NCBI RefSeq assembly: GCF_006483455.1
Contig: NZ_PPPU01000028.1
Location: forward strand, 1 to 64,000
Direction of reading: 5' to 3'
Length of the DNA: 64,000 nt
Source of the DNA: Methylomonas koyamae
Lineage (GTDB): Bacteria > Pseudomonadota > Gammaproteobacteria > Methylococcales > Methylomonadaceae
A program made the position numbers and the translations under genes. Positions 237-11,867 of this stretch are shown one piece after another. The notes below the pieces were generated by a model. It was not told where the DNA came from and ran no database searches. It saw only the letters and a program-made list of their open reading frames with translations. Each line of letters opens with the position of its first letter. The first letter of the stretch is position 1.

Positions 237-282
237 GCTTGTTTTTGGTGCAATTTTGCCCGGCATTGCGTGGTTTTGGTGC
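237..282 (+). promoter_or_regulatory. Tandem NtrC-like enhancer boxes upstream of the sRNA
   Basis: Two 15-bp boxes fit the GC(AC)-N7-GTGC layout of NtrC sites. Box 1 is at 237-251 (GCTT-N7-GTGC) and box 2 at 268-282 (GCGT-N7-GTGC); both end in TTTTGGTGC. The GTGC halves are 31 bp apart, three helical turns, as in the classic glnA enhancer. They centre about 128 and 97 bp upstream of the predicted start of the sRNA. The left halves are degenerate, so the call rests on the right halves, the spacing, and the same geometry before glnK1. Confidence 0.6.
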
Positions 283-345
283 GTTTTCCGAGTTGGTTCA
301 TCGCGCAAAGGAGCAAAAAAGGCTTGGAGCGACGTGTTTTTGACT

Positions 346-361
346 TGGCATTAACTTTGCT
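346..361 (+). promoter_or_regulatory. Sigma-54 promoter of the sRNA
   Basis: TGGCATTAACTTTGCT matches the sigma-54 consensus TGGCAY-N5-TTGCT, with GG (-24) and GC (-12) exactly 12 bp apart. The predicted start is near 372. No plus-strand gene follows; the next plus-strand signal is an intrinsic terminator ending at 448. Confidence 0.75.
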
Positions 362-371
362 TTAACTAAAG

Positions 372-448
372 CGTGTGTTGTTACTCCTACCTGTTCTCAA
401 GTGTGGACATTACGCCCTAGTTGGAAATCCAAGCAGGGCGTTTTTTTT
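372..448 (+). ncRNA. Predicted nitrogen-regulated small RNA
   Basis: The interval between the predicted sigma-54 start and a strong intrinsic terminator is about 77 nt. The first 40 nt look unstructured and carry a pyrimidine-rich stretch, ACTCCTACCT (383-392), complementary to Shine-Dalgarno sequences. The 3' part is the terminator hairpin with eight T residues. No ATG or ribosome binding site lies inside; a 15-codon GTG frame (373-420) ends in the hairpin and is not credible. By layout (NtrC boxes, sigma-54, short transcript) it resembles the NtrC/sigma-54-dependent sRNA NrsZ of Pseudomonas, but no sequence homology is claimed. The neighbour on the right, YjdM, is on the opposite strand, so this is not its leader. 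Confidence 0.65.
412..448 (+). terminator. Intrinsic terminator of the sRNA
   Basis: The arms ACGCCCT (412-418) and AGGGCGT (435-441) pair, with an inner TTGG/CCAA helix and an AAAT loop. Eight T residues follow (441-448). The T tract is on the plus strand, which argues for a plus-strand transcript. The reverse orientation lacks a U tract, so it is a poor terminator for yjdM. Confidence 0.85.
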
Positions 449-478: not shown

Positions 479-820
479 TTAAGCTTTTTTAACGAATTCG
501 GATTTCAACTTCATCGCGCCGATGCCGTCGATCTTGCAATCGATGTCGTGGTCGCCTTCCACCAAGCGGATGTTTTTGACACGGGTGCCGACTTTGACCA
601 CCAGCGACGAACCTTTGACTTTCAGGTCCTTGATTACGGTGACCGTGTCGCCGTCTTGCAGCGGGTTGCCGTTGGCGTCTTTGATGACCTTGAGGTCGTC
701 ACTATGGGCGTCGGCGGCGTCCTGAGTCCATTCGTGAGCGCATAACGAGCAGACGAAATTGTTACCGTCGTGATAGGTGTATTCGGACCCGCACTGCGGG
801 CAATTGGGTAAATCGTTCAT
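479..820 (-). CDS. yjdM: YjdM/PhnA family zinc-ribbon protein
   Basis: A 113-residue protein with an N-terminal zinc ribbon (Cys7, Cys10, Cys24, Cys27) followed by a compact C-terminal SH3-like domain rich in short beta strands ([20 protein letters not shown] and on). This is the architecture and usual length of the YjdM (formerly PhnA) family. Despite the old name the family is not an established part of phosphonate degradation and its role is unknown. The gene stands alone, converging with the sRNA on its left; purM lies upstream in the same direction after about 165 bp in which nothing else was recognised. It starts with ATG. Confidence 0.9.
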
Positions 821-4956: not shown

Positions 4957-6378
4957 TTATTCCTTGATATCCAGCTCTTTGATTTTGCGCGTCAGCGTAT
5001 TACGGCCGTAACCCAGAAGTAAGGCCGCTTCGTGTTTGCGGCCGTGGGTATGGTTCAGCGCCGCCTCGATTAATAAGGTTTCCACCGACGGAATCGCATG
5101 TTTAGCGATATCGACTTTACCCGACGAGAGCTGTTGTTTGACCCAGGTTTTGAATTGGTTTTCCCAGTCGCCATTACCGGGCTCATTTACGCTGGTCTCG
5201 GCGTGGCTCTGGCTGAGCTCCGGCGGTAGATCCTCGATATGGATTTCCCGGCCCGATGCCATAACTGTGAGCCAGCGGCAAATGTTTTCCAATTGTCTGA
5301 CGTTGCCCGGCCAACGCAAGGAACTCAGAAACGCTTCGGTATCCGGTCGCAATACTTTGATCTCGGTGTTCAGCTCTTTCGCACTTTGGTAGAGGTAATG
5401 CCGCATCAGCAAACCGATATCCTGCCGCCGCTCGCGCAACGGCGGAATATGGATGCGGATTACATTCAAACGGTGAAATAAGTCCTCCCTGAACCGGCCT
5501 TGGGCGACCAGTGCCTCCAGATCCTGGTGGGTGGCGGCAATGATGCGGACGTTGACCTTGACCGAGGTGTGGGCGCCGACCGGATAAAACTCGTTATCCG
5601 CCAACACTCGCAATAGCCGGGTTTGCAATTCGGCCGGCATGTCGCCGATTTCGTCCAGAAACAAGGTGCCGTTGTTGGCCTGTTCGAAGCGGCCGATGCG
5701 GCGGGCTTGGGCGCCGGTAAAGGCACCTTTTTCGTGGCCGAATAGTTCCGACTCCATCAAGTCCTTGGGAATCGCCGCCATGTTTAAGGCGATGAAAGGC
5801 TGGTCGGCACGCGGGCTGTGGCGGTGCAGCGCCTTCGCTACCAACTCTTTGCCGGTGCCGGATTCACCGTTGATCAGTACGGTGATATGGGAACGCGCCA
5901 AACGGCCTATGGCGCGAAAAACCTCTTGCATCGCCGGGGCTTCGCCGATGATTTCCGGCGTTTCCTGCACCCTTTCCTGTTCCTGAGTGTTGTCGCTATG
6001 ACGTTGCCGGCTGTGGGCGCAGGCGCGCTGTACGGTTTCGACGACTTCGGTCACGTCGAAGGGTTTGGGCAGGTATTCGAAGGCGCCGCCGTGGAATGCC
6101 GATACCGCGCTTTCCAGATCCGAGTGCGCGGTCATCACGATCACCGGCAGCTCGGGGTAGCTGTTTTGAATGTTGCGCAGCAGCTCGAAACCGTCCATGC
6201 CGGGCATCCTGATGTCGGTGATCAACACGTGCGGCAAGCCGTGGGGCAGCGATTTCAACAAATCGCCGGCATTGGAGAAGCTCTGCGTGTTGGCTCCGGC
6301 TTTCTGCAAGGCTTTTTCGAGTACCCAGCGAATGGATTTGTCATCATCGACAATCCAGACCTTGTCAGGAATTTGCAT
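4957..6378 (-). CDS. ntrC: Nitrogen regulation response regulator NtrC (NRI)
   Basis: 473 residues: receiver domain with phospho-acceptor Asp55 (ITDIRMPGMDG), AAA+ sigma-54 activator domain with Walker A GESGTGKE (171-178), the sigma-54 contact loop GAFTGA (218-223) and Walker B LFLDE (239-243), then a Fis-type helix-turn-helix near the C-terminus (LLGYGRNTLTRKIKEL). Phosphorylated by NtrB under nitrogen limitation, it activates sigma-54 promoters from enhancer sites. Its start overlaps the end of ntrB by 14 nt, so the two are translationally coupled. Several candidate targets with NtrC-like boxes lie in this window. Confidence 0.97.
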   Translation of the reverse strand: MQIPDKVWIVDDDKSIRWVLEKALQKAGANTQSFSNAGDLLKSLPHGLPHVLITDIRMPGMDGFELLRNIQNSYPELPVIVMTAHSDLESAVSAFHGGAFEYLPKPFDVTEVVETVQRACAHSRQRHSDNTQEQERVQETPEIIGEAPAMQEVFRAIGRLARSHITVLINGESGTGKELVAKALHRHSPRADQPFIALNMAAIPKDLMESELFGHEKGAFTGAQARRIGRFEQANNGTLFLDEIGDMPAELQTRLLRVLADNEFYPVGAHTSVKVNVRIIAATHQDLEALVAQGRFREDLFHRLNVIRIHIPPLRERRQDIGLLMRHYLYQSAKELNTEIKVLRPDTEAFLSSLRWPGNVRQLENICRWLTVMASGREIHIEDLPPELSQSHAETSVNEPGNGDWENQFKTWVKQQLSSGKVDIAKHAIPSVETLLIEAALNHTHGRKHEAALLLGYGRNTLTRKIKELDIKE

Positions 6379-7420
6379 GATTTTGCTCCAAGGGTAGGTA
6401 GATGGAAAACACGGTGTGGCCGGGTTCGCTTTCGCATTCGATCAGGCCGTTGTGTTGATTGATCAAGGATTGCGCGATCGATAGCCCCAGCCCGGTTCCT
6501 TCGGCGCGGCCGGTGATCATCGGGTAAAAAATTTGTCCCATCAGCTCGGGTTTGATGCCGGGGCCGTTGTCGATGATGTCTATTTTTACCGTCAGCCGGT
6601 AGCGTTTACGGCCGATCGTCATATGCCGTTGTACCCGGGTCTTGATGGTGATCTCGCCGTCGCTCTGTAACGCTTGCACCGCGTTGCGGACGATGTTCAG
6701 AATCGCCTGAATCAGCTGGTTTTTGTCGGCGAAAATCTCTGGAATGCTGGGGTCGTAGTTGGTTTCCAAGACGATGCCTTTGGTCGATTCCGCCGCAACC
6801 AGGTGGCGGACGCGTTCCAGGACTTCGTGGATGTTCAGCTGGCTCTTATTCGCCGGCTTGTTCGGGCCCAGCATTTTGTCCATCAGGTCTTGCAAGCGAT
6901 CGGATTCGGCAATGATGATTTGGGTGTATTCCTTCAATTCCGGGTCTTGTAACTCCAAATCCAGCAATTGCGCCGCACCGCGCAGCCCGCCCAGCGGGTT
7001 CTTGATCTCATGAGCCAGACCGCGGACCAGCATCCGACTGGTGTTTTGCTGGGCCAGCAATTGCTCTTCCTTGGTAATGCGCAGATGGCGGTCCACTTGC
7101 TGTAGCTCAATTAATATCTCGCTGAGTTCGCCGTCTTCCAGTAACGGCGTCGCGCTGAGATTTACGGTAATCGACTGGTTAAGCCGTTCTAGGATCAGCT
7201 CTCTATCGACCAGGGGTTCCAGCATGTACAGACGCGGCAATAATTCATTAAACAAGCTGCTGTGTGCGGTTTTGAATAGTTTGTGCGCCGTGTGGCCAAG
7301 CAAATGCTTGGCGCTGTCTGCTAACAGCATTTCGCCTGCCGGGTTAATGTAGATTAATCGCAAATCCTTATCGAACAGCAGGATTGCTTCGTTTAAGTGA
7401 TCGAGTATTTTTTTGTGCAC
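6365..7420 (-). CDS. ntrB: Nitrogen regulation sensor kinase/phosphatase NtrB (NRII)
   Basis: 351 residues: an N-terminal PAS domain (about 10-110), a HisKA domain with His137 in the H-box (LAHEIKNPLGG), and a HATPase domain with an N-box, DNGPGI and GLGLSIA. No membrane segment, as expected for the cytosolic NtrB that reads nitrogen status through PII proteins, two of which are encoded nearby. The start is GTG (complement of 7418-7420). The ntrBC operon is separate from glnA and appears to have its own sigma-54 promoter. Confidence 0.96.
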   Translation of the reverse strand: MHKKILDHLNEAILLFDKDLRLIYINPAGEMLLADSAKHLLGHTAHKLFKTAHSSLFNELLPRLYMLEPLVDRELILERLNQSITVNLSATPLLEDGELSEILIELQQVDRHLRITKEEQLLAQQNTSRMLVRGLAHEIKNPLGGLRGAAQLLDLELQDPELKEYTQIIIAESDRLQDLMDKMLGPNKPANKSQLNIHEVLERVRHLVAAESTKGIVLETNYDPSIPEIFADKNQLIQAILNIVRNAVQALQSDGEITIKTRVQRHMTIGRKRYRLTVKIDIIDNGPGIKPELMGQIFYPMITGRAEGTGLGLSIAQSLINQHNGLIECESEPGHTVFSIYLPLEQNHANS

Positions 7421-7456: not shown

Positions 7457-7472
7457 AGCAATATGTACGCCA
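7457..7472 (-). promoter_or_regulatory. Predicted sigma-54 promoter of ntrBC
   Basis: The minus strand reads TGGCGTACATATTGCT, with GG at -24 and GC at -12 in exact spacing; the -24 part (TGGCGT) deviates from TGGCAC. The predicted start is near 7446, giving a 5' leader of about 26 nt before ntrB. Confidence 0.55.
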
Positions 7473-11556: not shown

Positions 11557-11572
11557 AGCATTTTTGGGGCCA
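11557..11572 (-). promoter_or_regulatory. Predicted sigma-54 promoter of the porin gene
   Basis: The minus strand reads TGGCCCCAAAAATGCT, with GG and GC in exact -24/-12 spacing; the -24 hexamer is TGGCCC rather than TGGCAC. The predicted start is near 11546, 28 nt before the porin ATG. Confidence 0.6.
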
Positions 11573-11625
11573 ATTTCATTTTAATAAAAAATCAATAAGA
11601 TACGTTTGTTTGTTCCGGTTTTTTT

Positions 11626-11669
11626 GAACCTAAACGGTGCAATTCCGATTTTGTGATTTATTTTGGTGC
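11626..11669 (-). promoter_or_regulatory. NtrC-like boxes of the porin gene
   Basis: The box at 11626-11640 is GAAC-N7-GTGC, one mismatch from GCAC-N7-GTGC. A second, half-conserved box ends in TTTTGGTGC (11655-11669). Centres lie about 87 and 116 bp upstream of the predicted porin start, 29 bp apart, nearly the same positions as before ntrBC. Confidence 0.5.
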
Positions 11670-11744: not shown

Positions 11745-11789
11745 GGGTCGTGGTGGTGCATGTCTGTGCCGGATGCACCATCTGAGTGC
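11745..11789 (+). promoter_or_regulatory. NtrC-like boxes of glnK1-amtB1
   Basis: The box at 11775-11789 is a perfect GCAC-N7-GTGC match. A weaker box ending in GGTGGTGC lies 30 bp upstream (11745-11759). They centre about 96 and 126 bp before the predicted glnK1 start, almost identical to the sRNA promoter at 237-361. Confidence 0.65.
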
Positions 11790-11851
11790 GAATCTATTTG
11801 GTTTCGGCGGGGGATTTGTAACAACCGCTTATAAATCACGGACATAAATAG

Positions 11852-11867
11852 TGGCATGCATCATGCT
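11852..11867 (+). promoter_or_regulatory. Sigma-54 promoter of glnK1-amtB1
   Basis: TGGCATGCATCATGCT has GG and GC at exact -24/-12 spacing and follows the consensus except for an A in the -12 TTGC. The predicted start is near 11878, giving a 37-nt leader before the glnK1 ATG. Confidence 0.75.

Follow-up and report, generated by a model that had tools for sequence, protein, structure and literature searches.

Organization of the locus

The window, a stretch of 64,000 nucleotides from Methylomonas koyamae, starts at the start of its contig. The features at this end of the window are listed below.

237 to 251, forward strand: NtrC-like enhancer box 1, GCTTGTTTTTGGTGC; its TGGTGC half is 98% identical in 14 genomes
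268 to 282, forward strand: NtrC-like enhancer box 2, GCGTGGTTTTGGTGC; 93% identity in 14 genomes
345 to 361, forward strand: sigma-54 (-24/-12) promoter, TTGGCATTAACTTTGCT; 13 of 17 columns invariant in 14 genomes
372 to 448, forward strand: predicted small RNA of about 77 nt, from the geometry of promoter and terminator, conservation from +1/+3 and the absence of a conserved Shine-Dalgarno-led ORF
374 to 409, forward strand: nearly invariant 5' core with an anti-Shine-Dalgarno-like motif, UUACUCCUA; 97% identity, predicted unstructured
412 to 448, forward strand: intrinsic terminator, with the stem ACGCCCTAGTTGGAAATCCAAGCAGGGCGT at 412-441 and a T8 tract at 441-448, from folding and pair conservation
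479 to 820, reverse strand: yjdM (phnA family), a convergent gene 30 bp beyond the terminator (Pfam YjdM, TIGR00686)

The two boxes are spaced 31 bp apart, their GGTGC motifs starting at -125 and -94 relative to the predicted +1 (about position 372), and in each of them one half-site is good and the second is weak. The sigma-54 element at 345-361 has the form GG-N10-GC, and the RNA predicted to start downstream of it carries the conserved 5' start UGUGUUGUU. No same-strand gene lies close downstream of the sRNA; yjdM and then purM are convergent to it, and yjdM is a neighbour of the sRNA and is not proposed as its target. An earlier note on this DNA had described a sigma-54 promoter that faces no gene, two NtrC-like boxes 31 bp apart and an intrinsic terminator with eight T residues. 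All of these were located, and the free-standing unit of about 77 nt that the note had drawn from them appears to hold in the genomes with readable neighbours.

Chance controls and folding of the predicted RNA

Among 200 Markov-shuffled versions of the 64-kb window, none had a sigma-54-like site with an upstream GGTGC pair 29-33 bp apart; the real window has exactly one, and it is the sRNA promoter. The strict sigma-54 pattern has 9 matches in the whole genome, compared to 3 for the reversed control. Folding of the whole RNA gave -22.4 kcal/mol (z -2.7 against shuffles), a better-than-shuffle value that is due to the terminator half; the first 40 nt (372-411) fold no better than shuffles (z 0.43). 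A generic terminator scan did not call the sRNA terminator; the 2x2 internal mismatch in the stem is the probable reason. Across 14 sequences 96% of the terminator pair cells are kept, with some compensation, including changes from GC to AU on both sides.

Conservation of the module within Methylomonas

Of 37 Methylomonas genomes, 15 have the conserved module and 7 more have diverged free-standing homologues, 22 in total. A blastn search with positions 330-455 gave matches in 13 of the 35 other Methylomonas genomes; of the 61 genomes searched, none from another genus matched. The module is also present in one more genome of the same species. Among the named records in which the core motif occurs are those of M. 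methanica, M. fluvii and Methylomonas strains LW13 and WSC-7. The sRNA gave no matches in the plasmid collection. In the other 15 of the 37 genomes, some of which are incomplete, the sRNA is absent or was not recognised, and it is therefore not essential to the genus.

Pairwise identity over 14 genomes gives a clear footprint. The boxes are 98% and 93% identical, the spacer up to the -24 element 53%, the -24/-12 element 91% and positions -11 to -1 54%. The RNA core is 97% identical, with 33 of 36 columns invariant, and is followed by terminator arms at 89% and 98% around an apex at 66%. Thus the spacers have drifted (53-66% identity), and invariance starts at the predicted +1, as expected of an RNA gene. 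In nearly all type-A genomes the GGTGC of box 1 lies between -125 and -127, and in all of them that of box 2 lies between -94 and -96. Conservation of promoter and terminator in relatives, on which the earlier note had staked its prediction, proved strong. The decisive support for the locus is this phylogenetic footprint over 14 genomes together with the same predicted layout in 22 genomes. From these sequence data, the region 237-448 is very probably a real NtrC/sigma-54-dependent sRNA gene.

NtrC as the candidate activator

The genes and control regions that bear on the activator lie in the same window.

4957 to 6378, reverse strand: ntrC, the presumed activator (TIGR01818, 735 bits against a cut-off of 558.6)
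6365 to 7420, reverse strand: ORF directly upstream of ntrC, read as ntrB from position and sequence
7457 to 7472, reverse strand: sigma-54-like site before ntrBC, with the NtrC-type palindrome GCACCACTTTGGTGC upstream; positive control
11557 to 11669, reverse strand: porin control region, with the sigma-54-like site TTGGCCCCAAAAATGCT and two GGTGC boxes shaped as at the sRNA; positive control
11752 to 11867, forward strand: glnK-amtB control region, with NtrC-type boxes at 11752-11790 and the sigma-54 site GTGGCATGCATCATGCT at 11851-11867; positive control

The palindrome at ntrBC has the form GCACC-N5-GGTGC, and the region upstream of glnK-amtB carries NtrC-type boxes and TGGCATGCATCATGCT. 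As read from the sequences of the ORF list, the window also holds glnA, glnK-amtB and a second amtB. The sRNA boxes can be called NtrC sites because similar boxes are found at ntrBC, glnK-amtB and the porin promoter, and the same likeness lends support to NtrC as the activator, as the earlier note had proposed.

A true sigma-54 sRNA could instead respond to an activator other than NtrC, such as the NtrC-family response regulator that adjoins type A in the M. methanica clade and lies near type A' in three further genomes. This appears unlikely. The orthologue of that regulator (76% identity) is on another contig in the window's own genome, the regulator is also found in genomes without a detected sRNA, and the sRNA boxes resemble those at ntrBC and glnK-amtB. 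NtrC is taken as the best candidate for the putative activator.

The porin-type gene, which is divergent from glnK-amtB, apparently has its own sigma-54 promoter and NtrC boxes (window 11557-11669), which suggests a nitrogen-regulated outer-membrane porin. At another locus of the genome (L115, G000:C32:21204-21219), a strict sigma-54 site with the NtrC-type palindrome GCACCGGATTGGTGC upstream is located just before an ORF starting MNTQNIFDEMRAGDG; this locus is probably another Ntr target.

Diverged members and neighbouring genes

Two covariance models were used, one of the core group alone and one of the core group with the diverged members. They revealed free-standing homologues with a UGUUGUUCCUCCUGUC-like core in five genomes and a third core form, CGUAACUCCUGGCUGUUCCUCCUGUCC, in two; the E-values of weak matches are rough. 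Predicted transcript length is 75-89 nt across the 22 genomes. The near downstream neighbour is almost always convergent, and the neighbouring genes vary by clade. In the window's clade they are yjdM-purM and in the M. methanica clade an NtrC-family response regulator; several small genomes have a peptidase-type gene there, and two others an HDOD gene. An exception to the convergent arrangement is the MAG genome G030, in which a same-strand gene lies 353 bp downstream. Since the neighbours differ between clades, the sRNA gene is an independent unit at several unrelated chromosomal sites.

In most genomes the convergent gene ends only about 5-45 bp beyond the terminator, and the transcript might act in cis alone on this gene, by 3'-end antisense or interference, or merely provide its terminator. 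Such a role is very unlikely, as the convergent partner varies by clade while the RNA core stays 97% identical, and the conserved core precedes the terminator without overlapping the neighbour gene.

ANTAR-type leaders upstream of nirB and nrtA

The first covariance model also matched other loci in most genomes. These matches outside the main group were considered as a second sRNA type, which was rejected on account of the downstream genes, nirB and nrtA, and the ANTAR features. The nirB leader (L074:5749-5876, in the window's own genome G000:C2:23748-23875, reverse strand) is the best of these matches in that genome and is an NtrC/sigma-54 leader conserved in most Methylomonas genomes. Its ANTAR-type hairpin, GGAC-AAAGGC-GUCC, overlaps the terminator, and beside nirB are a nitrate-type transporter gene and an ANTAR response regulator. 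A similar sigma-54 leader with GGACAAAGGCGUCC (L143:3612-3750, own genome G000:C44:13611-13749) stands before an NMT1-family binding-protein gene, read as nrtA of nitrate transport. A hairpin that overlaps a terminator is the arrangement known for ANTAR antitermination. For comparison, see PMC3369931 and PMC7496416. By their sequence features, the nirB and nrtA loci are predicted NtrC/sigma-54 leaders and not sRNAs, and they match the models weakly because they share promoter and terminator with the sRNA.

Models built from the sRNA thus match leaders in the own genome and in relatives. Like the sRNA, these NasT/NasR ANTAR leaders have NtrC boxes, a sigma-54 promoter and a similar terminator, within about 100-120 nt of the promoter, and the sRNA region could on this ground belong to a downstream gene as its sigma-54 leader or attenuator. 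This reading is very unlikely. The leaders, unlike the sRNA, are directly upstream of nirB or nrtA, with the hairpin overlapping the terminator and an ANTAR regulator near nirB, whereas the window transcript is followed by the convergent yjdM and purM, and by other convergent genes in other clades. On sequence inspection, no A1/G4 hexaloop hairpin of the kind present in the nirB leader was seen in the window RNA, and no nitrate gene lies downstream on the same strand. The window RNA was also considered as an ANTAR decoy, which was rejected on inspection of the sequence, as there is no suitable hexaloop.

A short, possibly leaderless, peptide gene in place of a noncoding RNA is also very unlikely. 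In some genomes a GUG at +2 opens a reading frame through the core, but no Shine-Dalgarno precedes any start, and neither the length nor the sequence of the frames is constant from genome to genome; in many genomes a closed ORF of at least 8 codons is lacking. The two core sites that vary fall, in the GUG frame, on first and second codon positions and not on silent third ones. No conserved Shine-Dalgarno-led ORF was found across the 22 transcripts, and the small-peptide reading was rejected for want of a consistent ORF between genomes.

Proposed mode of action

The region 237-448 is best explained as a stand-alone gene for a putative trans-acting noncoding sRNA of the NtrC regulon. Under nitrogen limitation, NtrC-P would bind the two boxes and loop to E-sigma-54 at 345-361. 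Judged from sequence and conservation, transcription would start near 372 and the RNA would end at the U8 terminator, at 448. The product would have an unpaired, nearly invariant 5' half with CUCCU, a strong 3' terminator hairpin and a U tail, a shape typical of sRNAs that bind Hfq.

CUCCU, which is complementary to the Shine-Dalgarno sequence, is present in the 5' region of all 22 transcripts, and in the window RNA this region is predicted to be unstructured. Hfq is encoded in the genome (hfq). The sRNA would most likely act, with the help of Hfq, by pairing of its CUCCU region with the Shine-Dalgarno of target mRNAs, and initiation of their translation would then be lowered when nitrogen is short. 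The chances of such an anti-Shine-Dalgarno, Hfq-dependent mode of action are about even. Searches for extended seed complementarity in 8-9 genomes yielded counts that for the most part did not exceed those of the reversed-pattern control, and none of the single target candidates inspected was at a convincing start site. In a pilot duplex scan of 59 window genes the best duplex reached -27.2 kcal/mol and so stayed short of the 1% level of shuffled sequences, -29.3.

Comparison with known small RNAs

In Rfam 15, no family reached the gathering threshold for the window; the best sub-threshold score for the sRNA stretch was 17.4 bits against a cut-off of 50. NrsZ of Pseudomonas aeruginosa is an NtrB/C- and RpoN-dependent sRNA of at least 226 nt that is processed to about 40 and 140 nt; it is encoded in the spacer next to ntrC and carries the conserved motif ACAGGCAG (PMC9308961). 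Like NrsZ, the Methylomonas RNA is predicted to be free-standing under NtrC and sigma-54 and would be expected under nitrogen limitation, and in the window's clade it lies in the wider ntrC neighbourhood. Unlike NrsZ, it is 75-89 nt long, and in the window about 4.5 kb separate it from ntrC; in other clades its neighbours are other genes. The NrsZ motif is absent in 19 of the 22 Methylomonas sequences and is found inside the terminator stem in the other 3. By the features tested (length, position and motif), the Methylomonas sRNA is functionally like NrsZ but is not an NrsZ.

The Vibrio Qrr sRNAs, which depend on LuxO and sigma-54, are also short and of the Hfq type, with a sigma-54 promoter, upstream activator boxes and an intrinsic terminator, as predicted here. 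Their activator and signal are different, and no Rfam family matched the window RNA. GlnZ of Enterobacteriaceae, a nitrogen-limitation-linked sRNA, is described in PMC9731577 as released from the 3'UTR of the glutamine synthetase mRNA; the Methylomonas sRNA, in contrast, has a predicted promoter of its own.

Nitrogen-responsive sRNAs of this kind have apparently not been described in methanotrophs: no report was found in open-access titles and abstracts, consistent with the earlier note, and the Methylomonas NtrC/sigma-54 sRNA family is apparently undescribed. Nitrogen supply shapes the growth of methanotrophs and their uptake of methane. The exact gene, promoter and predicted 5' end are now at hand for cultured Methylomonas that carry the sRNA, such as LW13 or M. 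methanica.

Candidate transcripts in other Methylomonadaceae

Other genera of the Methylomonadaceae have candidate sigma-54 transcripts (loci L124-L127, L132, L133 and L078) about 80-90 nt long, each with a CUCUCUCCUGGG-like core and a terminator. They may be more distant relatives of the window RNA or form a class of their own. The Methylomonas RNA could conceivably belong, as one branch, to a class of CUCCU-bearing, NtrC/sigma-54-driven sRNAs that spans the family and includes the candidates linked to rhodanese and ankyrin genes, a proposal that we hold only tentatively and consider doubtful; if true, nitrogen status would govern translation in methane oxidisers. In several genomes rhodanese and ankyrin genes follow the candidate transcripts at a distance of a few hundred bases, and at locus L127 the candidate is present in two tandem copies.
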